DNA from: a virus
Virus record (IMG/VR): IMGVR_UViG_3300045944_000194
Coordinates: 1-31,199 of that record
Strand: one strand, 5' to 3'
Length of the DNA stretch: 31,199 nucleotides
Shown here: one piece after another, positions 1,587-30,824 of the stretch
How positions within the stretch are numbered: the stretch's first letter is position 1
Layout: every line of letters begins with the position of its first letter
Position numbers and translations under genes: made by a program
The notes under the pieces: model-generated
What the model was told of the DNA's origin: nothing
Database searches by the model: none
The model's input: only the letters and a program-made list of their open reading frames with translations

Positions 1587-2918
1587 GTGGGTAGAGTTAT
1601 TCGAGCGCTCAAGCACGGCTTCAATGCGTTCGCCTACGAGGACGAACACAAGTTGGGTCCGGAGTACTACGGCGGCATGTCGGGATCTCCTCGGCAGACG
1701 CGGACGAACTACCGGTTCCTCAACGACAAGTCCTTGATCGGGTCCATCTACAACCGCATGGCGCTGGACCTGAGTTCGGTGGAATTCTTCCACTGCAAGC
1801 TCGATGAGAACGACGTCGCGGTTGAGATCATTCGCGACGGACTGCACGATCGCATATCCTTGGACGCCAACATCGACCAGTCGGCGCAGGCCTTCAAGAT
1901 CGACGCGGCCATGACGATGTTCGAGATCGGGCACTGCGCCTTGGTTCCGATCGACACGACGTTGGACCCGAACACCAGCACAAGCTACGATATTCAGTCG
2001 ATGCGAGTCGGCCGAGTGGTCAACTGGCGGGCTCGACGTGTGACTGTTGAGGTCTATGATGACCGTGAGACGGATGGTAAGGGTAATCCGATCAACGGCG
2101 GCATCGTAAAGCAGCTCACCATGCCCAAGGACCAGGTCTGCATCATCGAGAACCCGTTCTACACCGTCATGAACGAGCCGTCTGGAACGCTCCAGCGACT
2201 CCTTCGCAAGCTGTCTCTCCTCGACGGGATGGACGAAGCGGCGGGTGCCGGAAAGCTGGATCTCATATTTCAGCTGCCCTACACCGTCCGCAGCGAGACG
2301 CGAAAGAAGCAGGCCGAGGAACGTAGAGCGGATCTTCGATCGCAGATGCGAGAGGACGAACTGGGCATCGGCTACATCGACGTGTCGGAGAAGGTTATTC
2401 AGCTGAACCGACCGATCGACAACAAGCTGCTGACTCAGATCGAGTTCTTGACTGCTCAGCTGTACACCAACCTGAGCCTGACGCCGGAGATCTTGAACAA
2501 TACGGCGAGCAAGGAAGTGATCGACCGTTACTACGACCGTACGATCGAGCCGATCGCCGAAGCCATGCGTCTTGAGATGAAGCGGAAGTTCCTGACCAAG
2601 ACCGCACGGACTCAGCGCCACTCGATCGAGATCTACCGCGACCCGCTCAAGCTTATTCCGGTGAGCGAGTTGCCGGAGGTTGCGGACAAGCTTATTCGCA
2701 ACGCGGTCGTCACGGCCAACGAGTTCCGTCCGAAGATTGGCTTCCGCCCGTCCAAGGACCCGAACGCGAACAAGCTGCAGAACCCGAACATGCCGATCGA
2801 CGACCAGCTTGCCGGAGCTCCCAAGGCGCTTCCGGCGAGTGAGAAGTTGAAGGCTACGCCGCTGCGCAAGAAGGAGGTGGAAAACCCAAATGACCGTGGA
2901 CTACGTAGGATTGTATAG
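1587..2918 (+). CDS. Portal protein
   Basis: This 443-residue protein is most likely the dodecameric portal through which DNA enters and leaves the capsid. It lies directly after the terminase and before the head-maturation genes, has the usual portal length, and shows a mixed alpha/beta N-terminal wing followed by an amphipathic stem/crown-like section around residues 230-340 (the segment with EFLTAQLYTNLSLTPEILN). The GTG start at 1587 has a GGAGG ribosome site at 1575-1579. Its 3' end overlaps the next gene by 29 bases, suggesting coupled translation. The assignment rests on position, length and overall similarity to HK97/SPP1-type portals seen by eye; no single catalytic motif exists for this family. 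Confidence 0.85.
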   Translation: MGRVIRALKHGFNAFAYEDEHKLGPEYYGGMSGSPRQTRTNYRFLNDKSLIGSIYNRMALDLSSVEFFHCKLDENDVAVEIIRDGLHDRISLDANIDQSAQAFKIDAAMTMFEIGHCALVPIDTTLDPNTSTSYDIQSMRVGRVVNWRARRVTVEVYDDRETDGKGNPINGGIVKQLTMPKDQVCIIENPFYTVMNEPSGTLQRLLRKLSLLDGMDEAAGAGKLDLIFQLPYTVRSETRKKQAEERRADLRSQMREDELGIGYIDVSEKVIQLNRPIDNKLLTQIEFLTAQLYTNLSLTPEILNNTASKEVIDRYYDRTIEPIAEAMRLEMKRKFLTKTARTQRHSIEIYRDPLKLIPVSELPEVADKLIRNAVVTANEFRPKIGFRPSKDPNANKLQNPNMPIDDQLAGAPKALPASEKLKATPLRKKEVENPNDRGLRRIV

Positions 2919-4443
2919 CGCCGGCGAATCGGTCGACGATATTCTTCACTACGGCGTACGAGGCATGAAGTGGGGTGTCCGAAAGGATGGCCCTGGTTCC
3001 AAGCTACGTGCGCATCGCGACAAGGTCGACAAGAAGCACCTCGCCAACGAGAAGCTTCCGACAAACAAGAAGCCTCTCCAGAAGGCGCTTGTTACCGACT
3101 ACACCCTTTCGCCATATCGTTCGGTGGGTCGTCTTCGTCGTAAGCAGGAGCGCTCGGTCTTGAGCCCGCTCAAGGGTATCAAGTTCGAAGACCTGACAGG
3201 CAAGCAGCAGTCGAAGCTCTACAAGTCCCTCGCGCGCGACCGCGAGCGCATCATGCGAAAGAAGCTCGGCACAGACAACGCCAAGCCGGTAAAGGACTAT
3301 CTGAAGGAGATCAAGGGCAATCCGAAGCTCCGCGATCAGATGGTTCGCAACCACGCTTCGCTGTTCAAGTTTGCAAAGCGCGACGCTCAGCACGGCGAGA
3401 CTCGTGGCAAGTACCTGCTTTCGCAGACTAACTGGCCGCGTCTTCTTCCGATCGGCGGAGCTTGGGGCTTCAAAACCAACCTTGCAATGAACACTCTCGG
3501 CGTCAGCGCGGTTGGTCTACTCGTTGGTTCCAAGAGCGCTCGTCACAGTGACGATATTTCACCCCAGGACTACATCGGCACCCCTCCCGAGGGCTACGAG
3601 ATTATCCACTACGGGGTAAAAGGAATGAAGTGGGGCGTTCGGCGGGATCGCGATGGCGGTCCTCGTCCCACTAGAGCGCGACGCAAGGAAGACGCCGAAA
3701 ACGAGAACGCCAAGAAGATGGATCAACTCATCCGAGGGCGTAACGAAGTTCACTTGGGTAAGTCTGACCTCGTCAGCACCAAGGGTAACAAGCAGATGTC
3801 CACGAAGGAAGCTCTCGAGGCCTACGACAAGGACATCAACAAGCTTGCAAAGAAGTCTCCGGCAGCCAAGAAGGTGTTGGACGACGCCAAGCGCGCGGCC
3901 AAGGAAGACGGGACGCTCACTCCGTCGAGTGACACCCAGAAGTACAACGCGATTCGTCGACAGGCGATGGAACAGGGCGTTGGCAGCTTGAACAACGAGC
4001 AGCTGAAGTTCCTGAACACTCGAGCCGAAGCCCTCACCAAGGCCAAGACTCAGTTCGCGGACAAGCAGTCGTGGCTGTCCAAGTCGTTGGAGGCGGCAAC
4101 CAACCGCGCCCTCAACGAGGCGCTCAACATCGGTCTTCGCGAGGTCAATGCGGCCATCGAGAAGTCCAAGGAGCCGAAGGCCAAGCCCTCGCTTACCGTC
4201 AACATCGGTCGGCGAGACAAGGGCGATAAGAGCTTCGACTATTCCGACTACGTCGGCAATCGCAAGGCCAAGCCATACAGCAAGACGTTCCCGTCGGCGC
4301 CTAAGCGGACCTACACTCCGTCGACAACGCCGGCTTGGGGCAGCATGGTGAGCCCTGGGTTTGGTTCCCAGCCGCTCAAGGCTCTACCGAGTCCCGTCTT
4401 GCGGACTCGTCGCAACGCCGACGGATCCTACGAGGTCATCTGA
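2890..4443 (+). CDS. Head-region protein with duplicated HYGV[KR]GMKWGVR motif
   Basis: This 517-residue, strongly basic protein sits between portal and protease/capsid. It carries two nearly identical short motifs, H-Y-G-V-R-G-M-K-W-G-V-R-K-D at residues 20-33 and H-Y-G-V-K-G-M-K-W-G-V-R-R-D at residues 240-253. This motif recurs in phage proteins encoded beside portals, and its function is not established to my knowledge. Each copy is followed by a Lys/Arg-rich, largely helical region, so the protein looks like two concatenated modules. The first module ends in a short hydrophobic stretch (about residues 203-215). The start at 2890 has an AAGGAGG site at 2871-2877 inside the portal gene. 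It could be a minor head protein, scaffold-like component or internal capsid protein; I cannot choose among these. Confidence 0.75.
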   Translation: MTVDYVGLYSAGESVDDILHYGVRGMKWGVRKDGPGSKLRAHRDKVDKKHLANEKLPTNKKPLQKALVTDYTLSPYRSVGRLRRKQERSVLSPLKGIKFEDLTGKQQSKLYKSLARDRERIMRKKLGTDNAKPVKDYLKEIKGNPKLRDQMVRNHASLFKFAKRDAQHGETRGKYLLSQTNWPRLLPIGGAWGFKTNLAMNTLGVSAVGLLVGSKSARHSDDISPQDYIGTPPEGYEIIHYGVKGMKWGVRRDRDGGPRPTRARRKEDAENENAKKMDQLIRGRNEVHLGKSDLVSTKGNKQMSTKEALEAYDKDINKLAKKSPAAKKVLDDAKRAAKEDGTLTPSSDTQKYNAIRRQAMEQGVGSLNNEQLKFLNTRAEALTKAKTQFADKQSWLSKSLEAATNRALNEALNIGLREVNAAIEKSKEPKAKPSLTVNIGRRDKGDKSFDYSDYVGNRKAKPYSKTFPSAPKRTYTPSTTPAWGSMVSPGFGSQPLKALPSPVLRTRRNADGSYEVI

Positions 4444-4500
4444 CTTGGGGTTAGTCATCGAGACAACATCCCGTCTACGAAGTAGCGAGGAAACTTCAAA

Positions 4501-6495
4501 ATGAAAGCAAAGACTCCCAACTTCTCGGGGTACGTCACCAAGGCGAACCTCAAGTGTGAAGACGACCGAGTCATCCTGCCCAACGCGTTCAAGCACCAGG
4601 ACGGCGGGCGCGTTCCGCTCGTCTTCCAGCACCAGCACAACGACGTCGGTCAGGTCCTGGGTCACGTCATCCTGACCAACAAGGCCGACGGCGTCTGGGG
4701 CGACGCGTTCATCAACGAGGGCACCCCTCAGGGCAAGAACGCTCTGGCTCTGGTCAAGCACGGCGACATCGACAAGTTCTCCATCTGGGCGAAGAACCTT
4801 ACCCAGCGCGGCAACGTCGTGTCGCACGGCGACATCAAGGAGGTCTCCCTGGTGCTCGCCGGGGCGAACCCCGGAGCTCTCATCTCCGAACTCGCGCTGG
4901 CCCACTCGGGCTTCGACGAGGACGAGAACCTGGTCGTGGTCGGCAACGAGATCGTTCACGCCGACGACGATGACGACGATGACGACGCCGGGGACACGGG
5001 TGTCACCATCGGAGAGGTCCTCAACACGCTCGACGAGGACCAGACGGCAGCAGTCAACCAGCTCATCGAAGAGGTTGTTACCGAAGCCGTTGCTGCGGCG
5101 GAGGCCCAGGCCGCTGTCCAGCACAGCGCTCTCATGGAACTTTTGGAGGATAACCAGATGTCTCGCAACGTCTTCGACAACTCGTCGACTGCGACGCCGG
5201 AGAAGGCCCAGCTCAAGCACGCCGACCAGCAGGCCTTCCTCAAGGCTGCTCTCGACGGCAAGGTCGACTCGCTGAAGGACTTCGTCGCGGCCCAGGGCAA
5301 CGAGCTCATGCACGCCGGCGACTACGGTGTCGACAACATCGAGATCCTGTTCCCGGACGCCCAGGCCCTGATGCGTACGCCCACCTGGGTCGACCGCCGT
5401 CAGGAGTGGGTCAAGACCTTCATCAACGGTACCAGCAAGTCGCCCTTCTCCCGCATCAAGACCATGTTCGCCGATATTACTGCGGACGAGGCTCGTGCTC
5501 GGGGTTACATCAAGGGCAACCAGAAGGTCGAAGAGGTCTTCCCGGTGTTCAAGCGCACCACCGGTCCGGCCATGATCTACAAGAAGCAGAAGCTCGACCG
5601 GCAGGACATCATCGACGTCACCGACTTCGACATCGTCGCCTGGATGAAGGGCGAGATGCGGATGAAGCTCGACGAGGAGCTCGCGCGCGCGGGTCTGTTC
5701 GGCGACGGTCGTCCGGTCATGGTCGGCGGCGAGATGAACCCCGACAAGGTCCAGGAGCCGACCGGCAACTCCGGCGACGGTATCCGTTCGGTCCTCAACG
5801 ACAACGACCTCTACACCATCGACATCGGTGTGGGTCTGCCGGCGAACCCGACCGACGACGACTGGCACGCGCTGATCGACGTCGCGACGACTTCGCGCGA
5901 GGAGTACCTCGGATCGGGCAACATCACCGCCTTCATGTCCTTCAAGACGGTGGCCGGTCTGCTCACGGTCCGCGACCAGTTCGGACGTCGGGTCTACCGC
6001 AACATGTCCGAGCTCGCTGCGGACATGGACTTCAACCAGATCGTCCGTGTGCCGTCCTCGCTGTTCCCGGAGGACGTTCTCATCGTGGCGCTCGACCTCG
6101 CCGACTACAACTTCGGCACGAACGCCGGTGGTCAGGTCTCGCTGTTCGACGACTTCGACATCGACTTCAACCAGTACAAGTACCTGATGGAGACCTACCT
6201 GTCCGGCGCTCTGACGCTGCCGTACAGCGCCATGGTCTTCCGTCGCGAGACTACGGGCGAGGGTGGCACCGACCAGGTGACCGCCACCGCTCCGACCTTC
6301 GTCGACGGCACCGACGGCACCGGCACGATCGAGATCCCGGTCGAGCAGGGTATCTCCTACAAGATCGGCGCGATTGCTCAGCCGGAGGGCACCACCATCA
6401 CGATCAACAAGCCCACCACTGTCAAGGCCGTTGCCAACCCCGGCTACACCCTGTCGGGTACGGCTAGCTGGACCTTCACGCCGACTGGCGGCTGA
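4501..6495 (+). CDS. Prohead protease - major capsid protein fusion
   Basis: One 664-residue ORF joins a capsid maturation protease to the HK97-fold major capsid protein. The protease part (about residues 1-150) shows the S78-type signature: His residues in VFQHQHND (44, 46) and the serine in DIKEVSLV (S116). A run of eight Asp (155-162) leads to a helical, scaffold-like linker (about 165-218). The capsid part begins near M220; residues such as KRTTGPAMIYKKQKL and the following acidic spine-like helix are typical of HK97-type shells. The last ~70 residues form a separate beta-rich domain resembling the C-terminus of the major tail protein. Codon use is distinctly more GC-rich than in neighbours, as expected for an abundant protein, and there is only one ATATT. 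An internal start at 5158 should give capsid protein alone. Confidence 0.88.
   Translation: MKAKTPNFSGYVTKANLKCEDDRVILPNAFKHQDGGRVPLVFQHQHNDVGQVLGHVILTNKADGVWGDAFINEGTPQGKNALALVKHGDIDKFSIWAKNLTQRGNVVSHGDIKEVSLVLAGANPGALISELALAHSGFDEDENLVVVGNEIVHADDDDDDDDAGDTGVTIGEVLNTLDEDQTAAVNQLIEEVVTEAVAAAEAQAAVQHSALMELLEDNQMSRNVFDNSSTATPEKAQLKHADQQAFLKAALDGKVDSLKDFVAAQGNELMHAGDYGVDNIEILFPDAQALMRTPTWVDRRQEWVKTFINGTSKSPFSRIKTMFADITADEARARGYIKGNQKVEEVFPVFKRTTGPAMIYKKQKLDRQDIIDVTDFDIVAWMKGEMRMKLDEELARAGLFGDGRPVMVGGEMNPDKVQEPTGNSGDGIRSVLNDNDLYTIDIGVGLPANPTDDDWHALIDVATTSREEYLGSGNITAFMSFKTVAGLLTVRDQFGRRVYRNMSELAADMDFNQIVRVPSSLFPEDVLIVALDLADYNFGTNAGGQVSLFDDFDIDFNQYKYLMETYLSGALTLPYSAMVFRRETTGEGGTDQVTATAPTFVDGTDGTGTIEIPVEQGISYKIGAIAQPEGTTITINKPTTVKAVANPGYTLSGTASWTFTPTGG
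5145..5160 (+). promoter_or_regulatory. Internal ribosome binding site for free capsid protein
   Basis: GGAGGA at 5145-5150 followed by ATG at 5158-5160, lying in frame within the protease-capsid ORF at the junction of the linker and the capsid domain. The codons used here (TTG GAG GAT) depart from the GC-rich choices of this gene, consistent with selection for a Shine-Dalgarno sequence. Confidence 0.6.
5158..6495 (+). CDS. Major capsid protein from internal start (in frame)
   Basis: Inside the fusion ORF, an ATG at 5158 is preceded by GGAGGA at 5145-5150 with 7 bases between, one of the best ribosome sites in the window. Translation from here gives a 445-residue protein starting MSRNVFDNSS, a normal length for an HK97-type major capsid protein plus a small C-terminal domain. 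Known HK97-type heads need many more capsid subunits than proteases, and an internal start would provide that ratio without a separate gene. I infer this product; the sequence shows the site but not its use. The alternative is that the fusion is the only product and is cut by its own protease. Confidence 0.6.
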   Translation: MSRNVFDNSSTATPEKAQLKHADQQAFLKAALDGKVDSLKDFVAAQGNELMHAGDYGVDNIEILFPDAQALMRTPTWVDRRQEWVKTFINGTSKSPFSRIKTMFADITADEARARGYIKGNQKVEEVFPVFKRTTGPAMIYKKQKLDRQDIIDVTDFDIVAWMKGEMRMKLDEELARAGLFGDGRPVMVGGEMNPDKVQEPTGNSGDGIRSVLNDNDLYTIDIGVGLPANPTDDDWHALIDVATTSREEYLGSGNITAFMSFKTVAGLLTVRDQFGRRVYRNMSELAADMDFNQIVRVPSSLFPEDVLIVALDLADYNFGTNAGGQVSLFDDFDIDFNQYKYLMETYLSGALTLPYSAMVFRRETTGEGGTDQVTATAPTFVDGTDGTGTIEIPVEQGISYKIGAIAQPEGTTITINKPTTVKAVANPGYTLSGTASWTFTPTGG

Positions 6496-6503
6496 TATTT
6501 CCC

Positions 6504-6824
6504 ATGAAGTACTCGGGGAAAGTCGGCTTCGCGACACAAGTCGAGACTTCTCCCGGAGTCTGGGACGACACGATCGTCGAAAAGGACTACATCGGCGACG
6601 TCGTCCAGAGGACGGAGAGGCTGGACAACGCGGAATCTATCACACCTAGATACCGCACCACGACCAGCTTCTCCGTCCTCGCAGACGCTGTTCTAAACGA
6701 ACGGCGCTCCGATATTCGATACATCAGATACAAGGGGGTGGCTTGGGCAGTGTCTTCGGTCATTCTCAAGTACCCCCGCATGGAGATGTACATCGATGAG
6801 GAGTACAATGGGCCAACGGCTTGA
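6504..6824 (+). CDS. Probable head-tail connector protein
   Basis: This 106-residue protein follows the capsid gene by 8 bases and precedes a tail-terminator-like gene, the usual place of a head-tail connector or stopper. Its sequence is beta-rich (alternating hydrophobic residues in FSVLADAVL, RYIRYKGVAWAVSSVIL) like small head-closure proteins. No diagnostic motif is visible. The 5' side has only a weak ribosome site (GGCGG within the end of the capsid gene) and an ATATT motif in the 8-base spacer region. It overlaps the next gene by 17 bases. Confidence 0.6.
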   Translation: MKYSGKVGFATQVETSPGVWDDTIVEKDYIGDVVQRTERLDNAESITPRYRTTTSFSVLADAVLNERRSDIRYIRYKGVAWAVSSVILKYPRMEMYIDEEYNGPTA

Positions 6825-7113
6825 GTTGCACGCAATTCTTAAGGGTATTCCCGAGGTCGAGGATGCATATTTCCAGCCGAAGCAGAATACTCAACTGACC
6901 TACCCGTGCATCACGTATCAGCTCTCCGATCACTACGTGGAGCACGCGAACAACGCGAACTACTGGCGGAAGAACCGATATTCCGTCACGGTCATCGACC
7001 GAAACCCCGACAGTTCGATCGTCGAGGCGGTGGCGGATCTCCCGTACACGGAGTTCGATCGTTTCTTCGTGACGGAGGGGCTGAACCACACGGTTTTCCA
7101 GACGTTCTTCTAG
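6808..7113 (+). CDS. Probable tail terminator / tail completion protein
   Basis: This 101-residue protein lies directly upstream of the major tail protein, the common site of the tail terminator that caps the tail tube before joining it to the head. The start at ATG 6808 is chosen over ATG 6796 because GAGGAG (6798-6803) lies just before it. The sequence (an N-terminal helix, then PCITYQL, a central YSVTVID strand and a helix around VEAVADLP) fits the alpha/beta layout of tail-completion proteins, but this is a structural impression and position is the main evidence. Confidence 0.6.
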   Translation: MGQRLELHAILKGIPEVEDAYFQPKQNTQLTYPCITYQLSDHYVEHANNANYWRKNRYSVTVIDRNPDSSIVEAVADLPYTEFDRFFVTEGLNHTVFQTFF

Positions 7114-7129
7114 GAAGGAACATATCTCA

Positions 7130-8017
7130 ATGTCCAAGTTGGTCTGGGACAAGATCGAGGAGCGGTTCTTCGAGACCGGCACCGATCGAGGTGTCCTCTA
7201 CATGCAGGAGAACGGTAACTACAACAACGGCGTGGCCTGGAACGGCCTGACCGGCGTTACCGAGTCTCCTTCGGGCGCAGAGCCCAGCAAGCAGTACGCG
7301 GACAACATCGCCTACGTCACCCTGATGTCGGCCGAAGAGTTCGCGGGCACGATCGAGGCGTTCACCTGCCCCGACGAGTTCTTCCAGTTCGACGGCATCG
7401 TCACCACGCCGTCGGGCATGAAGATCGGTCAGCAGAAGCGTCCGGACTTCGGCTTCGCCTACCGCACCAAGAAGGGTTCGGCGGCGGACGAGGACCTGGG
7501 CTACAAGCTGCACCTCGTCTACGGCGCCAAGGCTTCGCCGTCGGAGAAGGCCTACAAGACGGTCAACGACTCTCCCGAGCCGCTTACCTTCAGCTGGGCT
7601 TTCACCACCACTCCGGTCAACGTCACCGGCTTCCGCCCGACCTCGATCGTCACGATCGACTCGACGGACCCGCGCGTCTCCGCGAGTGCACTGCAGAACC
7701 TCGAGGACATCCTCTACGGCACCGACGACGGTGGAGGCGGCGGCAACGACCCGCGTCTTCCGCTTCCCGACGAGGTCAACACCATCCTCGAGGCCGGCAT
7801 TCAGCTGGTCACGCCGACTGCTCCGTCCTACAACGCGGCGACCGACACCATCACCATCCCGGCTACCACCGGTGTCGTCTACAGCATCAACGGCGACGAC
7901 AAGGACCCGAACGAGGCCGTCGTCATCACCGAGGACACGGTTGTCCGTGCCCGTCCGGCTGCCGGCTACAGCTTCACCGGCACCTACGTCAACCAGTGGT
8001 ACATCGCATTCACCTAA
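7130..8017 (+). CDS. Major tail protein
   Basis: This 295-residue protein is the likely tail tube subunit. It follows the terminator-like gene, has very GC-rich optimised codons and no ATATT motif, both signs of very high expression, and has the expected length. It ends in a ~70-residue beta domain after a Gly-rich linker (DDGGGGGNDP, about residues 200-209); that domain resembles the C-terminus of the capsid protein. The segment from VWDKIEERFFETGTDRGVLY onward is clearly related to the protein at 8554-9357, so the phage has two tail-tube-like paralogs. Given its codon bias, this copy is the better candidate for the main tube subunit. Confidence 0.85.
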   Translation: MSKLVWDKIEERFFETGTDRGVLYMQENGNYNNGVAWNGLTGVTESPSGAEPSKQYADNIAYVTLMSAEEFAGTIEAFTCPDEFFQFDGIVTTPSGMKIGQQKRPDFGFAYRTKKGSAADEDLGYKLHLVYGAKASPSEKAYKTVNDSPEPLTFSWAFTTTPVNVTGFRPTSIVTIDSTDPRVSASALQNLEDILYGTDDGGGGGNDPRLPLPDEVNTILEAGIQLVTPTAPSYNAATDTITIPATTGVVYSINGDDKDPNEAVVITEDTVVRARPAAGYSFTGTYVNQWYIAFT

Positions 8018-8034: not shown

Positions 8035-8541
8035 GTGCTCGAGCTGAAGGTTCTCACAGAGGACAAGATCGTGACATGCAGGTTCGAGCACTCTCTTCTG
8101 TCTCTGTCAAAATGGGAAGCGATTCACAAGAAGCCCTTCCTCAACGAGCGTGCAAAGACTCCATCGGAGATGATCTCCTACTACGAGTGCATGCTCGTCG
8201 CCCCGGCGAACCGAGATCTCGTGGTAATGCTCACGCCCGAGCAGATGGACGAGATGGGTAAGTACATCAACGACTCTCGAACTGCTTCTTCCGTCCCGGA
8301 CCTCGACACACCTCAGCGCGGTCCCAGGGAGACAGTGACGAGCGAGCTGATCTACTACTGGATGGTAGGTCTGCAGATCCCCTTCGAGGCCGAGAAGTGG
8401 CATATTTCTCGGCTTCTCATGCTCATTCGCATCACCAACTTCAAGCAGCAGCCCGCCGAGAAGCAGGACAAGCAGAAGCTCTGGGCTCGCTACCGTGAGA
8501 TGAACGAGCGGAACAAGGAGAAGTACAACACCAGTGGATGA
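8035..8541 (+). CDS. Probable tail assembly chaperone
   Basis: This 168-residue protein begins at GTG 8035 after an AGGCGAAGAG region. It sits between the major tail protein and its paralog and upstream of the tape measure, where siphoviruses encode the chaperone that wraps the tape measure protein. It is mainly helical, with a C-terminal segment (YWMVGLQIPFEAEKWHISRL) typical of proteins in this slot, and a charged tail (EMNERNKEKYNTSG). I saw no slippery sequence or downstream open frame that would give the classical -1 frameshifted longer form, so either this phage lacks it or the protein has another role. Confidence 0.55.
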   Translation: MLELKVLTEDKIVTCRFEHSLLSLSKWEAIHKKPFLNERAKTPSEMISYYECMLVAPANRDLVVMLTPEQMDEMGKYINDSRTASSVPDLDTPQRGPRETVTSELIYYWMVGLQIPFEAEKWHISRLLMLIRITNFKQQPAEKQDKQKLWARYREMNERNKEKYNTSG

Positions 8542-8553: not shown

Positions 8554-9357
8554 ATGCTTGAGTGGGACAAGCCCAACGAACGCTACTTCCACCATGGCGT
8601 CGATCGAGGCGTTCTCTATATTCCTGGAAAGGATCCAGTCGCTTGGTCCGGACTTACGTCAGTTGAGGAGCAGGGAGGTGGAGGAGCTAGTATTCTCTAC
8701 CGAGATGGCAGAGTTACTCTAGCCGAAGTCGACGCGTCGGACTTCTCCGCCAACGTCAACGCCCTGTTCTTCCCCAACGAGTTCTCCGAGTGCCTCGGTG
8801 TTCCAGAAGTAGCCGAAGGCCTGTACGTGGACAACCAGAAGCCGAAGCGCTTTGGCATGTCCTATCGCACTTTGGTCGGAAGCGGAACCGACGGCGACAT
8901 GTTCGGCTACCAGATCCATCTGGTCTACAACGCTGTTGCCTCCCTCGGTACCAAGACCCGCAAGACGCTTACCGACACTCCAGAACCGTTGGAGATGTCG
9001 TTCGGTCTCGTTTGTACTCCAGTAAAGCTACCGGAGTACCGCCCCTCGGCTCACTATATTCTGGACACCAGAGGAATGGGCCCTGGCGCTATTGCCGAGA
9101 TCGAAGCTCTACTGTACGGAACGCCGACAGAGGAAGGTCGACTTCCCACGGCCATCGAGTTGTTCGAGATGCTCAACTTCGGAACGACTCTGAAGGTCCA
9201 CGACAACGGCGACGGAACGGTAGAGATCAAGGCTGGCGCGCAGTACATCACCGCCAACCCGAACGGATCGGCAACGATCACCAACATCAATGCCGTAACA
9301 AACGTCGACGGTACATATTCCATCAGTGACGGAGGCGATACCGTCATCGTGCCATAG
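8554..9357 (+). CDS. Second major-tail-protein-like protein
   Basis: This 267-residue protein is a paralog of the major tail protein: both start with a W-D-K-x-x-E-R-[YF]-F core, then DRGVLY, share the patterns F.YRT / SYRT, GY(K/Q)(L/I)HLVY, DSPEPL/DTPEPL, a (F/Y)RP segment and an (I)LYGT motif before the linker. Codon bias is ordinary and three ATATT motifs are present or adjacent, unlike the first copy, so it is probably made at a lower level. Its C-terminal ~50 residues form a different small beta domain. It may form the last rings of the tail, a tail-tip adaptor or an alternative tube subunit. An ATG at 8554 follows a GAGGAGGG ribosome site. Confidence 0.75.
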   Translation: MLEWDKPNERYFHHGVDRGVLYIPGKDPVAWSGLTSVEEQGGGGASILYRDGRVTLAEVDASDFSANVNALFFPNEFSECLGVPEVAEGLYVDNQKPKRFGMSYRTLVGSGTDGDMFGYQIHLVYNAVASLGTKTRKTLTDTPEPLEMSFGLVCTPVKLPEYRPSAHYILDTRGMGPGAIAEIEALLYGTPTEEGRLPTAIELFEMLNFGTTLKVHDNGDGTVEIKAGAQYITANPNGSATITNINAVTNVDGTYSISDGGDTVIVP

Positions 9358-9367: not shown

Positions 9368-9856
9368 GTGGCAACCGTCCAGGTGCTGCAACTCAGCAAG
9401 GCCATGGAGATCCTTGGCGAATCGGTCGTGGCAGGATCCATCAACGAGGCCGGCCACTTGATCCTCACCAGAGGCAACGGCGAGGTTGTCGACGCCGGAG
9501 ACTTCAGTGCTGCCATCAGCAGCCTCATCAACGGGGCGATCGCAGCGGCTACGCTGCTCGATATTCTGATCAGCTCTTCCGCAGTCGACAAGGTGACTCT
9601 TCGCGCCAAGCGAAAGGCCTCCCAGACTGCGGATATTTTCCAGGTGCTGGCAGAGAACGGCACCACCGTCCTGGGCAAGATCGACAAGGACGGCAAGTTG
9701 GCGATCACACTCAAGGGCTCTTCGATCAACGCCGCAGAGAACACGTTGACCAACGTCGACGCGGTCAAGATTGCCGGCTCCAAGGTCACGATCGACAACA
9801 CCGCTCCGTCGTCGCCTGCGGCGAACGATATTTGGATCAAGCCGAACGGGACGTGA
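9368..9856 (+). CDS. Minor tail protein, putative
   Basis: This 162-residue protein starts at GTG 9368 after GGGAGG. It has an N-terminal region with an A/I-rich helix, a central repeat-like beta section (KVTLRAKRKASQ, NGTTVLGKIDKDGKLAITLKG) and a C-terminal APSSPAANDIWIKPNG segment of a type seen at the ends of tail-fibre-like proteins. The FN3-containing tail protein follows after 5 bases. No enzymatic motif is visible. A virion surface or tail fibre role is inferred from context and the short beta-strand repeats. Confidence 0.55.
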   Translation: MATVQVLQLSKAMEILGESVVAGSINEAGHLILTRGNGEVVDAGDFSAAISSLINGAIAAATLLDILISSSAVDKVTLRAKRKASQTADIFQVLAENGTTVLGKIDKDGKLAITLKGSSINAAENTLTNVDAVKIAGSKVTIDNTAPSSPAANDIWIKPNGT

Positions 9857-19542: not shown

Positions 19543-19586
19543 AAATTTCCTGGGCGGGATATTTCATCTCAAAGTTAAACCGCAGA

Positions 19587-22418: not shown

Positions 22419-22450
22419 TCTTGTCCAGTCATATTCACGAGAGGCCGCAA

Positions 22451-23023
22451 ATGTCCGTCGTAGTCGCCTTCAAGGTGCACAGCGAAGAGATCACCTTCAC
22501 CAACCTCCAGGGCAAGACCATCAAGGAGGAGCTCCACTTCCTGATCGACCCGTACAAGCTCATGGTCCTCATGTCGGACTACACCCCGAAGAAGGTCCGA
22601 AGCGGCAACCCTGCACTCAACGGCAAGGACGCTCCCGTCACCGACCGCGAGCAGCTGGAGATGGTTCGCTCGCTCGTCATCGAGGCGGCGGGCTGGCCCA
22701 GCGAGGACGGCAACGGGTGGGTCCAGAACTACGACTTCCCCGAGAGCCTCGCCGGCAAGACGTTCCTGGCCAAGCTGGTCGCCAGCGACGAGATCCGCAA
22801 GTCCTTCACTCAGGTCGCCATCTTGGAGCCGTTCCGCACCTTCGTCACCCTCTTCGAGGCCGTGCCGGAGAACACGGAGAAGGAGAAAGAGGATATTCGA
22901 AAGCAGCTGGCGCAGATGGAGAACATCTTCAAGGCGCCTTCTGGCGAGACCGCCGAGCAGCGTCGTCAGCGTCTCACCGCCGAGCTGGCGCAGCTGGAAG
23001 ACAACAACGCACCGTCCGAGTAA
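22451..23023 (+). CDS. Phage protein of unknown function (190 aa)
   Basis: This 190-residue protein starts at ATG 22451 after GAGAGGCC. The N-terminal part is beta-rich (VVVAFKVHSEEITFT), the middle alpha/beta, and the C-terminal ~60 residues are a charged coiled coil (ENTEKEKEDIRKQLAQMENI, then QRRQRLTAELAQLED). No membrane segment or catalytic motif is visible. Codons are well optimised. The next gene starts one base after its stop. Unrecognised; the coiled coil suggests oligomerisation or partner binding. Confidence 0.65.
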   Translation: MSVVVAFKVHSEEITFTNLQGKTIKEELHFLIDPYKLMVLMSDYTPKKVRSGNPALNGKDAPVTDREQLEMVRSLVIEAAGWPSEDGNGWVQNYDFPESLAGKTFLAKLVASDEIRKSFTQVAILEPFRTFVTLFEAVPENTEKEKEDIRKQLAQMENIFKAPSGETAEQRRQRLTAELAQLEDNNAPSE

Positions 23024-23626
23024 GTGGTCCAGTTCCCCAACAAGGCAGAGAGCCAGGACGCTGGTCCTCCGCCGAAGAAGACTATTCAGGCAGTCGTGTC
23101 CGGGGCGACGCAGAAGCCCAGGCCGCCATCGAAACGCCTGTTCGGAGCCATATTTGCCGAGTCCCCTAGGAACCTGGGCTCGCAGGTAGGGCGAGAAGTT
23201 GTACTGCCCCGCATGAAGATGGCCTTGGAAGAGGCTGTCATGGGGCTGGTTCGAGGCATGCTGTGGGGAAACGAGAGGCCAGTCGACAACCTCCTCGTGC
23301 AACGTGCCATGCAGCGTAGCAACATGCGGGACTACAGTGGCATTTCCACAAGTCAGACTGCCATTCCGCAAACGCCAACTCGTTCCTCGGGAAACTACGA
23401 GGACTTGATTCTGCCCGACATGCGATCGGCCGAACGGCTTCTCGCATATTTGGCGGAACTCATCAACGAGTACCGCTGTGTCGCCGTTGGCGACCTCTAC
23501 GAGGCTGCTGGAATCACCGGCATGCCTTCCGACAACGCCTTTGGGTGGACATCTCTCACTGGCGCTCGCATATCTGCAACACGTGGCGGCTTCCTCCTGG
23601 AGCTTCCGCGTCCGACACTTCTCTAA
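23024..23626 (+). CDS. Conserved phage protein with C-terminal DLY-GW-LP domain
   Basis: This 200-residue protein starts at GTG 23024. A basic, Pro-rich N-terminus and a hydrophobic helix region (ALEEAVMGLVRGMLW) lead into a C-terminal domain of about 75 residues: YEDLILPDMRSAERLL, then VAVGDLYEAAGITG, DNAFGWTSL and GGFLLELPRP. I recognise this last arrangement as recurring in phages of Gram-positive hosts, usually near DUF6353-like genes, without known function. Next gene's ribosome site AAGGAG overlaps its stop. Confidence 0.65.
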   Translation: MVQFPNKAESQDAGPPPKKTIQAVVSGATQKPRPPSKRLFGAIFAESPRNLGSQVGREVVLPRMKMALEEAVMGLVRGMLWGNERPVDNLLVQRAMQRSNMRDYSGISTSQTAIPQTPTRSSGNYEDLILPDMRSAERLLAYLAELINEYRCVAVGDLYEAAGITGMPSDNAFGWTSLTGARISATRGGFLLELPRPTLL

Positions 23627-23635: not shown

Positions 23636-24550
23636 GTGTACAAACTCTCACGCGCTTGGGGTGCAGCACAGCTCGCCCTGAAAGCGAACTCTCCGCGCAT
23701 TCTCGTGGTCGGCGGCATCGTCGTCATGGGTGCGGCGGCGATCGTGGCCTGCAAGCAGACCCTGAAGCTCGAGGACGAGATCGAGCCCGAGGTTCTCGAG
23801 ATCGAAGAGGTCAACGACGTCACCTCGCAGCCGGGCATCCACAACATGGACGTCTACAACAAGCGTAAGTACAAGGCCTACCGAGGCGTAGCCGTCAAGT
23901 GCGGCAAGCTCTACGTCCTTCCGGCCGGCATCTTCCTGCTTGGAGCGGGCATGACGTTCAAGGGTCACATGATCCTGGAGAAACGCAACGCCGCCCTGGC
24001 CCTGGCCTTCACGGCTCTCAAGCGCAGCTTCGACGACTACCGAGCTCGGGTGATCGCGAAGCACGGCGACGAGTGGGACCAGCGCCTGCTCAACGGCGAG
24101 AAGTGGGACGAGGTCGACGGCTTCGCCGACAAGGTCGTCACCCGTGACTGGGAGGCCTCGGAGAAGGATCCGTACAACCGGGTCTTCTCTCAGTCCACCT
24201 CGCGGCACTGGCAGGACGATCTCGGCTCCAACAAGTACTTCCTCGAGTGCCAGCAGCGCTTCGCTCAGGAGCGTCTGAACCGGCGTGGCTACATCTACCT
24301 GTCCGACATCTACGAGGACCTCGGCTTCTCCGAGAGCGATATTTCTCGTCAGGTCGGCTGGAAGATCACGACGAACGAGGACGGCACTCGCAACGTTCCG
24401 TGGGTGGACTTCGGTCTGAACAAGAACATGCCGAAGGACTGGACCTACAACCGCGAGAAGGCCGTCTACCTGGACTTCAACTGCCAGGGTCTTATCATCG
24501 GTGGCAAGATCCAGGATATTCTGGAGAAGGCCGCACGAGGAAGCGAGTGA
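23636..24550 (+). CDS. Membrane protein, DUF6353-like (copy 2)
   Basis: This 304-residue protein starts at GTG 23636 after AAGGAG. Membrane segments lie near residues 21-39 (ILVVGGIVVMGAAAIVAC) and 96-112 (LYVLPAGIFLLGAGMTF), separated by an acidic region. The C-terminal half contains FSQSTSRHWQDDLGSNKYFL, then ERLNRRGYIYLSDIYEDLGF, a VGWKI strand, and VDFGLNK, a pattern I associate with DUF6353 proteins. It has the same membrane topology as the protein at 20671-21459, so the two look like diverged paralogs. It is coupled to the next gene by a GTGA overlap. Codon use is optimised, suggesting abundance. Confidence 0.7.
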   Translation: MYKLSRAWGAAQLALKANSPRILVVGGIVVMGAAAIVACKQTLKLEDEIEPEVLEIEEVNDVTSQPGIHNMDVYNKRKYKAYRGVAVKCGKLYVLPAGIFLLGAGMTFKGHMILEKRNAALALAFTALKRSFDDYRARVIAKHGDEWDQRLLNGEKWDEVDGFADKVVTRDWEASEKDPYNRVFSQSTSRHWQDDLGSNKYFLECQQRFAQERLNRRGYIYLSDIYEDLGFSESDISRQVGWKITTNEDGTRNVPWVDFGLNKNMPKDWTYNREKAVYLDFNCQGLIIGGKIQDILEKAARGSE

Positions 24551-25047
24551 GGACGCCACTGGGGCTGTCTCTGGTGTGGACCTCGGGCCTGTGTGTAGGC
24601 CTCGGTCTGGCCTGGCTGAGAGAGAAGCCCGAGCCGGAGTCTAGCGTCGTCATCGAGTACCGCGATATTCCAAGGTCGGAAGAGGAGTTCCCTCTCGTCA
24701 TGCCTACGACGGCTACCGTCGAGGAGATGAAGGCGAGGCTCGCTACGGCCTTGGAGGAAAACAAAAGGCTCACTGCACCCTATGCGCCATCTGGGGCGGA
24801 GGGGGCGTCATATTTGACGCAGATCTCCGAGGAGTCATACCACGAGGACGACGACTACGACAAGTCGGTCGTTGAGATCTTCCGTTCAGACAGCGGGGAT
24901 CACGTCATCGTGGACGGCACAGAAGACGACAACTGGCAGCACACGCTCGGAGCAGATCTTCTCGACATCATGGTCGGGATGACTGGCATCTACGTCCGTA
25001 ATGAGAACCTCAAGACGGACTTCGAGGTGGGCTGGGGACAACCGTGA
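24547..25047 (+). CDS. Membrane-anchored protein of unknown function
   Basis: This 166-residue protein starts at GTG 24547, overlapping the previous stop. An N-terminal signal-anchor-like segment (LGLSLVWTSGLCVGLGLAWL, residues 5-24) is followed by a polar acidic region with a short coiled coil (VEEMKARLATALEENKRL) and a C-terminal soluble part (DKSVVEIFRSDSGDHVIVDG). Two ATATT motifs fall in it. It is translationally coupled to the DUF6353-like gene before and the gene after (GTGA), so the three probably act together at the membrane. Confidence 0.6.
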   Translation: MRTPLGLSLVWTSGLCVGLGLAWLREKPEPESSVVIEYRDIPRSEEEFPLVMPTTATVEEMKARLATALEENKRLTAPYAPSGAEGASYLTQISEESYHEDDDYDKSVVEIFRSDSGDHVIVDGTEDDNWQHTLGADLLDIMVGMTGIYVRNENLKTDFEVGWGQP

Positions 25048-25604
25048 TCGGCGGAGAGGCATTCGTTGCACGGTACTATGCTTGGCTGCTCGAGCAGGCT
25101 TACGCCACGAACGCTCGGCGTCAAATGTACGGTGGCGTGCTACGAGTTCTCTTCGACATCCCGTTCTACTGGACGATCGTGCGGGATGACGACAGAGCAG
25201 GCGACGCCAGCGTATACAGGCGCTACGAAGCGTGGCAGCTCGAATCCGAGCCGAACACGGTAAATCCGGAATGGCTGGCAAACTGGGTTCAGTCGACGCC
25301 CAGCGTGCTGGAGGTACTGGTGGGAATTGCGGAAAGGTGGTCTCAGTTCTTCGAGAAGCCTGTTCCGTACTACTTCAACCACCTATATCGCAACATGGGC
25401 TTCCACATGTACAGAGGCGCACATCTACGCCCGAGTGAAGAGGAGGCCGTCAGGTGGACAGTAGACAACTGGCTCAATCGTCGGATCGAGTACAACGGCG
25501 AGGGTAGCCCGTTCCCAATCAGAGCGAATCGAGGAACAATCGACATGCGACTGATCCCGATCTGGGAGCAGATGAACGCATATTCACGTCAACACTTCAT
25601 GTGA
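25044..25604 (+). CDS. Conserved phage protein of unknown function (186 aa)
   Basis: This 186-residue protein starts at GTG 25044, overlapping the previous stop. It is Trp/Tyr/Arg-rich with an N-terminal YYAWLLEQAY helix, LFDIPFYWTIVRDDDRAGD, SVLEVLVGIAERW, and a C-terminal FPIRANRGTIDMRLIPIWEQM. I recognise the same series (YFxWL, DxNRAxDG, SVLExLV, GxxFPL, WxQM) from phages of other Gram-positive hosts, often near DUF6353-like genes and a DNA polymerase. No catalytic motif is known to me. It lies 11 bases before the replication gene. Confidence 0.65.
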   Translation: MIGGEAFVARYYAWLLEQAYATNARRQMYGGVLRVLFDIPFYWTIVRDDDRAGDASVYRRYEAWQLESEPNTVNPEWLANWVQSTPSVLEVLVGIAERWSQFFEKPVPYYFNHLYRNMGFHMYRGAHLRPSEEEAVRWTVDNWLNRRIEYNGEGSPFPIRANRGTIDMRLIPIWEQMNAYSRQHFM

Positions 25605-25615: not shown

Positions 25616-28600
25616 ATGGACTTCATTCGAATCGGAGTGAAAGAGAACAAAGACGGCACGAGGGAGTACTTCCCCTCACTGCAAGTGGCATACACCAACG
25701 ACGTAGTGGTGCGTGGCGGCGGCTTCGTGGCTATCTGGGACGAAGACACAGGGCTATATTCCAGGAGCGTTTCCGAGGCCGCCGACATCATCGACCGTTC
25801 GTTCGCCAGAATGGTGGGCGACAAGCTGCGTCCAGGCGACAACATCCGCAAGATGAAGGTGTACGACAACCAGTCCTGGAACAAGTTTCACTCCTGGATG
25901 AAGAACGTCGGCGAGGTCGGTCCGGATCTAGACAAGAAGCTAGTCTATGCCGATCAGGTGGCAACCAAGCAAGAAGCGGCAACGTTCAAGATGTCATATT
26001 CTCTCACCTCGGCCCCGCCCAAGGCCTGGGAGAGAGTTGTCGGAACGCTGTACGACGAGAACGAGCGTCTGAAGATCGAGTGGGCGATCGGGTCGGTGCT
26101 TTCTGGCGATGCCGCAACGCTGATTCACAAGATGTACGTGTTCTTCGGTGCACCGGGCTCGGGCAAGTCGACGATTCTCAACATCATCGATTTGCTATTC
26201 GAAGGACACACCGCTGCTTTCTCTGCCTATCACTTGGGCCGAGCAGACAGCGCGTTTAACCTCGAGCCGTTTCACAAGAACCCTCTTGTGGCGATCGACC
26301 AAGATGCAGACCTGTCTCGGATCGACACCAACAAGAATCTGAACAGCCTCGTGTCCCACGACAAGATCACAATCAACGCCAAGGGACGAAGCATCTTCGA
26401 GATCGTCCCTCGATCGACGCTGTTCATCGGCACCAACGAGCCGGTCAAGATCTCAGACCGAAAGTCGGGCATATTCAGACGCCTTGTGGACATCCAACCC
26501 ACAGGGACGCTCATTCCCGAGTCCGAGTATCACCAGCTCATGAGCCAGATCAAGTTCGAGTTGGGCGCGATTGCTGCCCGGTGTCTTCGCGTCTACCAAC
26601 ACTACGGCCCGGCATATCTGTCGAGCTACCGGTCTACGGAGATGATGTACAGGACAAACGACGTCTTCAACTTCGTGGAAGACAACCGCATGGTCTTGTC
26701 TCACGGGGTAACCCTGAAACAAGCGCACAAGATGTACGTGAACTGGTGTGAGGAAACCGACACCAAGATCGTACTGAAGCAGTACAAGCTACGCGATGCC
26801 TTGAAGGAGTACTTCGAGGAGTTCCACGAGCAGATCATGATCGACGGCGAACGCTATCGGTCCTACTTCAAGGGACTCAAAGCCGTCGAGAAGTTCGGCT
26901 ACGTTCAGGTGAAACACGAGCCTCGATCGTGGCTGATGCTGGAGGAGCAGGACTCGCTACTGGATCGATATCTGGCCCAGTCTCCAGCACAGTACAGCAC
27001 CGGCGACGAGAAGCACCCACTCAAGAAGCCTTGGGCGCAGTGTGACTCAAAACTGATGCAACTGGACACGTCGCTGGAGCACTACGTCCAGGTTCCGACA
27101 CAGCACATCGTCATCGACTACGACTTGAGGGATTCCAGTGGAGCAAAGAGTCTCGCCCTCAACCTCCAGGCGGCCAGTGGATGGCCTCCTACATATGCTG
27201 AGGTTAGTCGCGGCGGACAAGGGCTACACCTTCACTACGATTACGTGGGCGACGTTGGTGAGCTTGCCAGCGTGGGCGGTGGTGGAGCTTTCGAAGTCAA
27301 GACACTGCTTGGTAACGCAAGCCTGCGTCGAAGGCTGTCTCAGTGTAACGCTATATCCGTCGCAACGCTATCTGGCGGACTACCTCTCAAGTCTGAAGGA
27401 AGGGGGAACGTGCTCTCATCCGAAATGGCTATGAGCGACAAGGGCTTGAGAGAGCTCCTCGTTCGGGCCTTGAAGAAGGAAGTACATCCCAATACCAAGC
27501 CCAGCATGGACTTCATCAAGAAGGTGCTGGACGACGCAACGGCCCAGGGCATGTCCTACGACGTGACGGACATGTACGAAGACTTCTTCAACCTGGCCAT
27601 GAGCAGCTCCAACCAGCGCGATATCTGCCTGGAGATCCTGGCGCAGCTCAAGCTCAAAAGCGAAGACGAGATCCCGGCGGGGCCCGAGGGCAGCGCTCCG
27701 ATCGTGTTCTTCGACTGTGAAGTGTACCGCAATCTGTTCCTCATCTGCTGGATGTACGACGAGGACGACGCCGAGGTTGTCACCATGATCAACCCGACGC
27801 CGGAGGAAGTGGAGAAGCTGCTGGGCTATCGGCTCATCGGCTTCAACAACCGCCTCTACGACAACCATATCCTCTGGGCTCGAACCCTGGGATACACCAA
27901 CGAGGCGCTGTACAACCTCAGCCAGCAGATCATCACCGAGTCCGACAACAACAAGAAGTTCGGTGCTGCATATTCTCTCCACTACGCGGACGTGCACGAC
28001 TTCGCATCGGAGAAGAAGAGCCTGAAGAAGTGGCAGGTGGAACTTGGCATTCCGCACATGGAAATCGACATTCCTTGGGATCAGGATGTCCCTGAGGACC
28101 GAGTTCTCGATGTCGCCGAGTACTGCGCAAACGACGTCCGAGGAACGCGTGCTGTTGCGAAGGCGCGATCTGGTGATTTCGCGGCACGGCAAATCCTTGC
28201 TGCGCTGTCCGGTCTCGAGGTCTGCAACACAACTAAACAGCACACCGAACGACTTGTCTTCGGCGAGACCAAGGACCCGTCTGGGGAGCTGGTCTACACC
28301 GACCTGGCAAAGACGTTCGTAGGCTACAAGTTCGATCGATTCGCCCCCGGCAAGGAGAAGAGCACCTACAAGGGCGAGAAGATTGGAGAGGGCGGCTATG
28401 TCTACGCAGAACCAGGGATGTACGACAACGTTGCTCTGCTCGATGTGGCATCGATGCACCCTACGAGCATTGTCGAACTCGACTTGTTCGGACGCCATAC
28501 GCTTCGCTTCAAGGAGCTGATGGACGCTCGCCTCGACATCAAGCACAAGCGGCTGGAAGATGCAGCCAAACGCTTCGACGGCAAGCTGGCACCATATCTC

Positions 28601-29347
28601 GACAACCCGAAGCAGCTGAGCGATGCCCTCAAGATCGTGATCAACACGGTCTACGGTCTGACCGCAGCCGGCTTCCCCAACAAGTTCAGAGACGATCGCA
28701 ACCTCGACAACATCGTGGCCAAGCGTGGCGCTCTGTTCATGGTGGACTTGAAGGAGTTCATTCAGCAGAAGGGCTTCACCGTAGCCCACATCAAGACCGA
28801 CTCCGTCAAGATCCCAGACTGCACGCCCGAGCTCATCGAGGAAGTCAAGGAGTTCGGGGCCAAGTACGGCTACACCTTCGAGCACGAGGCGACGTACGAG
28901 AAGTTCTGCCTCGTCAACGATGCGGTGTACGTGTGCTACACCGGCGGTCACTGGGAGGCAACAGGTGCCCAGTTCGCCCACCCCGTGGTGTTCAAGACGC
29001 TGTTCACCCAGGAGCCGATCGACCCCGAGGACTACATCGAGATCAAGCAGGTCCAGAAGGGCCACATGATATTGATGGACACCCCCAACGGAGTGCATTC
29101 GCGCATTCGTTTCGTCGGTCGTTTCGGCGCTTTTCTGCCAATCGTCAACGGCTCGACGCTATATCGCGTGGACGGCGAGAAGACGGCAGCAGTCACCGGC
29201 ACCAAGGGTTATCTGTGGGAGCTCGCCGACGAGGCGATCAACCGTGGGTACGAGATCGACGTCTCCTACGCACAGGCCTTGGTGGACGAGGCACGGGAGG
29301 CGATCGAGAAGTTCGGTTCCGTATCCAAGTTCACGTGGACCGGGTAG
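25616..29347 (+). CDS. Helicase-primase-exonuclease-family B DNA polymerase fusion
   Basis: This 1243-residue protein joins four replication modules. SF3 helicase (about 140-330): Walker A GAPGSGKST at 178-186, Walker B-like LVAIDQDAD near 224-232, sensor STLFIGTNEP at 267-276 and arginines in RKSGIFRR. A helical linker follows. AEP-like primase (about 480-600): HIVIDYDLRD with D501/D503, and SRGGQGLHLHY with H538/H540, then EVKTLLG. DEDD exonuclease (about 695-850): D700 and E702, YD at 748-749, Y836 and D840 in YCANDV. Family B polymerase (about 900-1240): motif A LLDVASMHP with D943, motif B KIVINTVYG at 1006-1014, motif C KTDS at 1060-1063 with D1062. All key residues are present, so the enzyme should be active. 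Start ATG 25616 follows GGGGAGGG. Confidence 0.85.
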   Translation: MDFIRIGVKENKDGTREYFPSLQVAYTNDVVVRGGGFVAIWDEDTGLYSRSVSEAADIIDRSFARMVGDKLRPGDNIRKMKVYDNQSWNKFHSWMKNVGEVGPDLDKKLVYADQVATKQEAATFKMSYSLTSAPPKAWERVVGTLYDENERLKIEWAIGSVLSGDAATLIHKMYVFFGAPGSGKSTILNIIDLLFEGHTAAFSAYHLGRADSAFNLEPFHKNPLVAIDQDADLSRIDTNKNLNSLVSHDKITINAKGRSIFEIVPRSTLFIGTNEPVKISDRKSGIFRRLVDIQPTGTLIPESEYHQLMSQIKFELGAIAARCLRVYQHYGPAYLSSYRSTEMMYRTNDVFNFVEDNRMVLSHGVTLKQAHKMYVNWCEETDTKIVLKQYKLRDALKEYFEEFHEQIMIDGERYRSYFKGLKAVEKFGYVQVKHEPRSWLMLEEQDSLLDRYLAQSPAQYSTGDEKHPLKKPWAQCDSKLMQLDTSLEHYVQVPTQHIVIDYDLRDSSGAKSLALNLQAASGWPPTYAEVSRGGQGLHLHYDYVGDVGELASVGGGGAFEVKTLLGNASLRRRLSQCNAISVATLSGGLPLKSEGRGNVLSSEMAMSDKGLRELLVRALKKEVHPNTKPSMDFIKKVLDDATAQGMSYDVTDMYEDFFNLAMSSSNQRDICLEILAQLKLKSEDEIPAGPEGSAPIVFFDCEVYRNLFLICWMYDEDDAEVVTMINPTPEEVEKLLGYRLIGFNNRLYDNHILWARTLGYTNEALYNLSQQIITESDNNKKFGAAYSLHYADVHDFASEKKSLKKWQVELGIPHMEIDIPWDQDVPEDRVLDVAEYCANDVRGTRAVAKARSGDFAARQILAALSGLEVCNTTKQHTERLVFGETKDPSGELVYTDLAKTFVGYKFDRFAPGKEKSTYKGEKIGEGGYVYAEPGMYDNVALLDVASMHPTSIVELDLFGRHTLRFKELMDARLDIKHKRLEDAAKRFDGKLAPYLDNPKQLSDALKIVINTVYGLTAAGFPNKFRDDRNLDNIVAKRGALFMVDLKEFIQQKGFTVAHIKTDSVKIPDCTPELIEEVKEFGAKYGYTFEHEATYEKFCLVNDAVYVCYTGGHWEATGAQFAHPVVFKTLFTQEPIDPEDYIEIKQVQKGHMILMDTPNGVHSRIRFVGRFGAFLPIVNGSTLYRVDGEKTAAVTGTKGYLWELADEAINRGYEIDVSYAQALVDEAREAIEKFGSVSKFTWTG

Positions 29348-29348
29348 G

Positions 29349-29376: not shown

Positions 29377-29388
29377 ATAGGAGGACAC

Positions 29389-29568: not shown

Positions 29569-29575
29569 TCACAGG

Positions 29576-29609: not shown

Positions 29610-29628
29610 TCTTGTCTTAAGGAGAGAC

Positions 29629-30422: not shown

Positions 30423-30454
30423 AGTACAAGAATCCGCCAAAGGAGTACACGTGA
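30230..30454 (+). CDS. Small Cys-containing protein, overlapping previous gene
   Basis: This 74-residue protein starts at ATG 30230 with GTGAGG upstream. Its C-terminal half (HEWPTDGEHLWGSWQ, KYYRTCVHPKCSAVEYK) looks like a small phage protein with a C-x4-C pair, a possible metal site. Its stop overlaps the next GTG start (GTGA), and its last bases contain the ribosome site AAAGGAG, which supports it as a real gene. It overlaps the frame at 30189-30422 by 193 bases in a different phase. Function unknown. Confidence 0.6.
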   Translation: MSGVSNQPVADGGCSLGDIVADSELAKRGPHEWPTDGEHLWGSWQAFSRSKYYRTCVHPKCSAVEYKNPPKEYT

Positions 30455-30525
30455 GCTGGGAATTCTGGATCGTAGTCGTGGCCATCGCCTTCCTGGTGGC
30501 CCTGGCAGTCAAGAGGTGGTTCTGA
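30451..30525 (+). CDS. Very small membrane protein (24 aa)
   Basis: GTG 30451, six bases after AAAGGAG and overlapping the previous stop, opens a 24-residue frame: MSWEFWIVVVAIAFLVALAV and then KRWF. This is a single membrane helix with a basic end, typical of phage micro-proteins. Function unknown. Confidence 0.6.
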   Translation: MSWEFWIVVVAIAFLVALAVKRWF

Positions 30526-30824
30526 TAGACGCCAAGTTCAACGTCGAGGGGGACCATATTCCTCGCATCGAAGTGGGTCGACAGCTCGTGTGGGAATGGG
30601 CTGCGGAGGCCTTGGGTGTGGGCAAGGAACACCCCACGTTCAGCGTCGAGGAGGTGTACTGCGTTTGGTTCTGCAAGACCCTGCAGCACTGGAAGGCGCT
30701 GTACTCCACCACGATTCCGGACAAGCGGTACTACGAGGTGACCTACAACGGCGATCGAGACGAGGTCTACATCGACACCTACAGCAAGACTCACAACATA
30801 AACGTCAACGAGGTGTATCGATGA
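30516..30824 (+). CDS. Conserved small phage protein (DUF6275-like)
   Basis: This 102-residue protein starts at GTG 30516 within the end of the previous gene. The core (EEVYCVWFCKTLQHWKALYS, TTIPDKRYYEVTYNGDRD, then YIDTYSKTHN) resembles small phage proteins I recall as DUF6275, of unknown function. The stop overlaps the next start as ATGA. Confidence 0.65.
   Translation: MVLIDAKFNVEGDHIPRIEVGRQLVWEWAAEALGVGKEHPTFSVEEVYCVWFCKTLQHWKALYSTTIPDKRYYEVTYNGDRDEVYIDTYSKTHNINVNEVYR

Follow-up and report, generated by a model that had tools for sequence, protein, structure and literature searches.

Why does a GC-rich phage genome carry the pentamer ATATT dozens of times on one DNA strand and never on the other? 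The question is raised by IMG/VR virus record IMGVR_UViG_3300045944_000194, which is 31,199 bases long (58% GC), was analyzed over its whole length, and is referred to here as the window. It is a fragment of a siphophage, with terminase and head genes that are ~72% identical to those of the Streptomyces phages Rima, Bing, Madamato, and pSt2402. A direct count returns 57 copies of ATATT on the + strand, the first at 1990 and the last at 30556, and 0 on the − strand, which is the asymmetry described in the original prediction made from this sequence. Base composition predicts 10.6 and 13.4 copies on the + and − strands, and dinucleotide composition 4.7 and 6.2. No other pentamer in the window exceeds its dinucleotide expectation as strongly as ATATT (z = 24), which recurs roughly once per 0.5 kb.

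An explanation in terms of codon use, composition, or amino-acid preference had already been doubted, and it is ruled out by shuffles that preserve every protein as well as the codon use of the genome. Over 300 such shuffles, the coding sequence of the window (gene calls span 94% of it) holds a mean of 5.3 and a maximum of 12 sense copies, compared with 52 observed, a ~10-fold excess; antisense coding copies average 4.8 in the same shuffles, compared with 0 observed. By this measure ATATT shows the largest excess among all 1,024 pentamers in the window, in Rima, in Bing, and in Gordonia phage Secretariat. The coding copies are distributed 8/27/17 over codon phases 0/1/2 and further copies lie in spacers, so that the earlier statement that the motif occurs in all three phases and between genes holds as well.

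The + strand sites lie at 1990–1994, 2265–2269, 2939–2943, 3554–3558, 5474–5478, 6495–6499, 6712–6716, 6867–6871, 6978–6982, 8402–8406, 8618–8622, 9056–9060, 9315–9319, 9561–9565, 9633–9637, 9828–9832, 9991–9995, 12051–12055, 12358–12362, 13110–13114, 13317–13321, 13712–13716, 14260–14264, 14821–14825, 15246–15250, 16390–16394, 16803–16807, 16921–16925, 17008–17012, 17386–17390, 17520–17524, 18023–18027, 18451–18455, 18793–18797, 19084–19088, 19559–19563, 20051–20055, 20277–20281, 21329–21333, 21471–21475, 21697–21701, 21812–21816, 22431–22435, 22893–22897, 23150–23154, 23446–23450, 24339–24343, 24516–24520, 24665–24669, 24810–24814, 25580–25584, 25756–25760, 25996–26000, 26471–26475, 27970–27974, 29069–29073, and 30556–30560. 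The closest pair (9561 and 9633) is separated by 72 bp. Sites are scarce in capsid and major tail genes of the window, as had been noticed, and the major tail gene (7130–8017) contains none.

Comparison of related phages shows that the sites are maintained. Where the amino acid is conserved and the third base of its codon lies within a site, the rate for the same codons outside sites predicts 34.1 synonymous changes between Bing and pSt2402, 52.9 between Rima and Madamato, and 47.1 between Rima and Bing; the observed numbers are 7, 15, and 32. The antisense form, AATAT, is depleted from coding sequence, with 2 copies against 23.4 expected in Secretariat, 4 against 24.4 in Rhodococcus phage ReqiPepy6 (Pepy6), and 5 against 22.9 in Microbacterium phage Count. 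In annotated relatives the density of ATATT is about three-fold greater in spacers than in genes, which is consistent with placement of sites where coding constraint permits. As judged from these sequence comparisons, selection is acting on the nucleotides themselves and not on the protein or on codon use.

The purging of antisense copies suggests that the element is recognized as DNA rather than RNA. An RNA-level signal, in which an RNA-binding protein of the phage or its host (RegB-like or RNase-like) would cut or bind messages at AUAUUY (Y, pyrimidine) to handle early mRNAs, would fit the sense orientation, as the genes all run rightward, and also the small number of copies that several relatives have in their late structural genes. 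Such a signal would not require removal of antisense copies, however, and generic RNWUU shows no enrichment. These points also leave the suggestion of an RNase E site of the RN-WUU type unsupported, as other RNWTT pentamers are found 78 times in the window where 167 are expected. A host RNase is made unlikely by retention of the core across hosts of different phyla, and we regard an RNA-level role as quite improbable overall. Leftward genes, which bear on the same issue, are almost absent from this phage family: a first-pass set of "leftward" blocks (46 + against 2 −) was largely an artefact of gene calling, and ten better-supported leftward genes, with ATATT at 14 against 10, do not separate gene direction from strand. 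Because all members of the family are transcribed one way, roles in transcription, replication polarity, and RNA handling are not fully separable by sequence.

The bases around the core define the element further and agree with the B-ATATT-Y consensus first proposed. The base 3′ of ATATT is a pyrimidine at 52 of the 57 window sites and at 88% of 570 sites in six genomes, with nothing farther out strongly marked in the latter set. The base 5′ of the core is never A, either in the window or at any of the 570 sites, because AATATT contains an antisense copy; this is the antisense rule appearing again. Over 824 sites from nine genomes, positions −1 and −2 are rich in C or G after correction for codon phase, and positions +7 to +12 are enriched in G (z of 2.5 to 5.1) and poor in T (z of −2.2 to −4.2); this flanking composition means that the element points rightward. 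By these signatures, (C/G-rich)-ATATT-Y followed by a G-rich, T-poor half-turn is one selected, directional DNA element laid over the protein code.

The element also obeys a spacing rule. Pooled over eight genomes, ATATT pairs less than 35 bp apart number 2 against 51 expected and pairs 35–70 bp apart number 17 against 51.5, whereas beyond 70 bp the ratio of observed to expected is about 1; other common words in these genomes show no such pattern. On a finer scale the exclusion is near-complete to ~35 bp and has faded by about 75–85 bp. As chance copies make up about a tenth of the total, close spacing may be harmful or may merely bring no benefit.

Most relatives share the strand bias, as the selection argument had anticipated. 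Counts of ATATT/AATAT are 116/3, 104/2, and 116/2 in the whole genomes of Rima, Bing, and Secretariat; 91/2, 89/1, 79/5, and 105/8 in 50 kb of pSt2402, Madamato, Pepy6, and Count; and 47/3 and 30/0 in 23 kb of Microbacterium phage Camille and Curtobacterium phage Daddyjeff. The control Streptomyces phages R4 and phiC31 show no bias (0/0 and 2/2). Farther afield, the word in Faecalibacterium phage FP_oengus is TGATATTT (33/0), and in loci taken from bacterial genome assemblies, several of which are metagenome-assembled contigs with uncertain host assignment, the most asymmetric 7- to 8-mers are often ATATT with lineage-specific 5′ bases: TTATATTT (21/0), AAGATATT (24/0), GCATATT (39/1), and also CGATATTT and TTGATATT. 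Several prophages with an extended motif, though not all, have a similar but shorter exclusion zone. The contig L209 (CANQZG010000029.1, binned as Muribaculaceae, 59% GC), with an extreme density of 81 ATATT against 2 AATAT in 14.1 kb, extended to GCATATT(TG), has no exclusion zone. An ATATT core with lineage-specific 5′ extensions thus characterizes phages and prophages whose hosts are Actinobacteria, Firmicutes, and, apparently, members of other phyla. As these hosts differ so widely, the reader of the core is likely a common phage protein and not a host factor.

A candidate for this protein is provided by a gene family, phrog_4291, a member of which (about 880–990 residues) is encoded by all motif-bearing relatives that were fetched. 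The protein carries a DFDGD signature and has matches to sigma-70 region 4 and helix-turn-helix (HTH) domains near both ends. A PDB search with its sequence found no relative, but its predicted fold (mean predicted local distance difference test score of 79.9) best matches, among PDB entries, QDE-1 (E = 5e-11) and the RNA polymerases P74-26 gp62/P23-45 gp64, with template modeling scores of ~0.3 that confine the likeness to the level of the core. From this model, the phrog_4291 protein is a two-barrel RNA polymerase with a QDE-1-like fold. About 250 sequenced phage records from Actinobacteria and Firmicutes carry it, as do prophages of gut bacteria and the genomes in which the extended words TGATATTT, TTATATTT, AAGATATT, and GCATATT were counted. 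The single record L013/L062, a contig whose DNA polymerase is related, has the gene as well. A tree of the polymerase does not place the motif within a single clade; many of the loci in it reach no farther than the right end, where even Rima has few sites. Among the environmental contigs tested, ATATTC counted over the whole record is mostly biased to the polymerase strand (e.g., 35/1, 52/5, and 36/3). Public labels for the family are inconsistent, ranging over RNA-dependent RNA polymerase, HTH protein, structural protein, tail fiber, transcription factor D5, and excise; the depositors' "structural protein" label on the phage 1706 homologue hints at a virion polymerase.

The distribution of the motif along genomes differs between phages. 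In lytic actinophages it covers most of the genome, whereas the late structural region of temperate relatives has little or none. It is concentrated in the early region of FP_oengus, where copies crowd ahead of the polymerase gene and are few in the structural genes, and of a prophage in a 4.3 Mb metagenome-assembled genome (MAG), where 37 of the 99 copies of TTGATATT lie on the + strand within a 32 kb block ending at the polymerase gene start, with 1 copy on the − strand of the block and none in the 20 kb downstream. In this prophage (L184; G028:C45:119944-151929) the array stops at the start of the polymerase gene and its spacing tightens toward the gene. Limitation by region argues against a whole-chromosome signal and weakens the Chi/KOPS-like polarity that had been suggested. 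Some other polar signal of the virion genome, such as Chi-like protection, orientation of packaging or ejection, or T5-like strand-specific nicking, would account for the one-strand orientation genome-wide and for the rise in motif density that Secretariat and Pepy6 show toward the polymerase end. Against this, sites are missing from the right-most kilobases and are few or absent in the late region of temperate relatives, and signals of the Chi type involve no purging of copies in the opposite orientation; we give this class of explanation a similarly small likelihood to that of an RNA-level signal. Chi, KOPS, and DNA uptake sequences are likewise short polar words over-represented throughout genes, and ATATT resembles them in this respect, but it is unlike them in the purging of the opposite orientation, the 35–75 bp exclusion, and the regional limits in temperate relatives.

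Of the roles first suggested for the motif, which included the RNase E site rejected above, we favor that of a site bound by a phage protein, and the polymerase with sigma-like HTH segments is the best candidate reader of ATATT. Our tentative proposal, held with slightly less than even confidence, is that the ATATT elements are binding or initiation sites of the phrog_4291 polymerase. The enzyme would read the element through its sigma-region-4-like HTH segments as a minimal promoter-like site for loading or initiation. A sense copy would provide a rightward start, in the direction of nearly all genes, and antisense copies would be purged because they would launch antisense transcription. Sites closer than about 35–75 bp would be useless or harmful, as a bound polymerase would occupy that stretch, and 35–75 bp is a plausible polymerase footprint. 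The G-rich, T-poor composition at +7 to +12 is only suggestive as a sign of transcript starts. The polymerase may be carried by the virion and act on the early region.

Several observations weigh against this proposal. Intergenic sites are spread uniformly within gaps at no fixed distance from start codons, for which reason promoters linked to start codons were rejected, and most sites are intragenic, unlike known promoters. Arthrobacter phage Mudcat, Lactococcus phages 1706 and P162, and the gut record MT835495 carry the polymerase without the bias. Counted over the whole records of 1706 and P162, ATATTC has a reversed bias (19/45 and 29/52), possibly reflecting the base composition of these AT-rich genomes. 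Lastly, the DNA primase/polymerase and the phrog_4291 polymerase are found in essentially the same records, so the link of RNA polymerase and motif is a correlation, and occurrence could not dissociate the two enzymes.

The same co-occurrence speaks for replication polarity, in which ATATTY would serve the phage DNA primase/polymerase as priming sites on the lagging-strand template, with 5′-AAUAU as the primer and Y as the unread 3′ base. Strand polarity and antisense avoidance would both follow, as antisense copies would misprime the leading template. This explanation gives no reason for the 35–75 bp exclusion, the composition signal lies downstream of the motif and not upstream where the primer would form, and replication forks also cross the late structural region of temperate relatives, where the motif is all but missing. 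We consider it unlikely, if a little less so than a signal in RNA or in the virion genome.

Two further DNA-level possibilities were rejected. Many gaps between small genes in Bing (L010; 26138–34992) hold an intergenic inverted repeat, GTAGGGGTCKCA...TATAAT...TGAGACCCCTAC, which is probably a regulated host-type promoter. ATATT lies near this TATAAT-bearing repeat in just a few Bing gaps, overlapping a few of its copies, and was dismissed as a −10 element of host promoters. Binding of Lsr2 was set aside, as it is AT-rich and not strand-specific.

Known phage systems offer partial parallels to a polymerase that reads ATATT. Thermus phage P23-45 encodes two-barrel polymerases, vRNAP and nvRNAP, with short start motifs (PMC10770324); common to both would be a QDE-1-like enzyme encoded by the phage and a short DNA start motif of its own, putative in our case and absent in relatives that lack the polymerase. 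The early transcription of P23-45, by contrast, uses 23 mapped starts with motifs just upstream (PMC10770324), whereas about 50–115 copies per genome or fragment are seen here, mostly intragenic and in all codon phases. YonO of SPbeta, for which the promoter sequence was undetermined as of 2017 (PMC5467207), is likewise a single-chain two-barrel phage RNA polymerase of about 100 kDa, but it serves a late operon, while several relatives have few ATATT copies in late genes and the highest density in their early/middle regions. One-way orientation of a short site has its own precedent in T7, in which all 36 EcoP15 sites have the same orientation (PMC3874151); unlike these, ATATT in the sense orientation occurs far more often than expected and is conserved. 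Escape from a Type III restriction system with a need for head-to-head sites would explain a single orientation and the absence of antisense copies, but not the 10-fold sense excess, the synonymous conservation, or the spacing. It is also implausible that hosts so different would share a single enzyme specificity, which leaves this idea barely credible.

The genes of the window place it relative to these enzymes. The gene run starts with the terminase (18–1574), and a DNA primase/polymerase gene (phrog_4210; 25616–29347, + strand) marks the family without being the signal. Relatives have their phage RNA polymerase gene some 10 kb to the right of the DNA primase/polymerase gene, and the window fragment stops short of where it would be. 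Two phrog_2152 genes of unknown function (20539–21459 and 23636–24550) flank other small genes before the DNA polymerase. In pSt2402 (L009), the gene at 10869–11906 encodes a protein with a SLOG-like YAcAr domain and a putative phage single-stranded DNA-binding domain (PF24083).

A limited search of the open-access literature found no report of the ATATT motif or of a recognition sequence for phrog_4291, and the motif offers a concrete candidate target for this polymerase. Dense regulatory codes that overlie protein-coding sequence and follow a spacing rule are also rarely seen this clearly. In a bolder form of the polymerase proposal, which we find doubtful, the sites would make up a genome-spanning one-way array of minimal loading sites for a polymerase that needs only a 5–6 bp element, and the genes would have been rewritten to provide a site in one direction every few hundred base pairs, to bar the other direction, and to leave polymerase-width gaps. 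If this is true, the array would make direction belong to the phage DNA as a whole and not to individual promoters.

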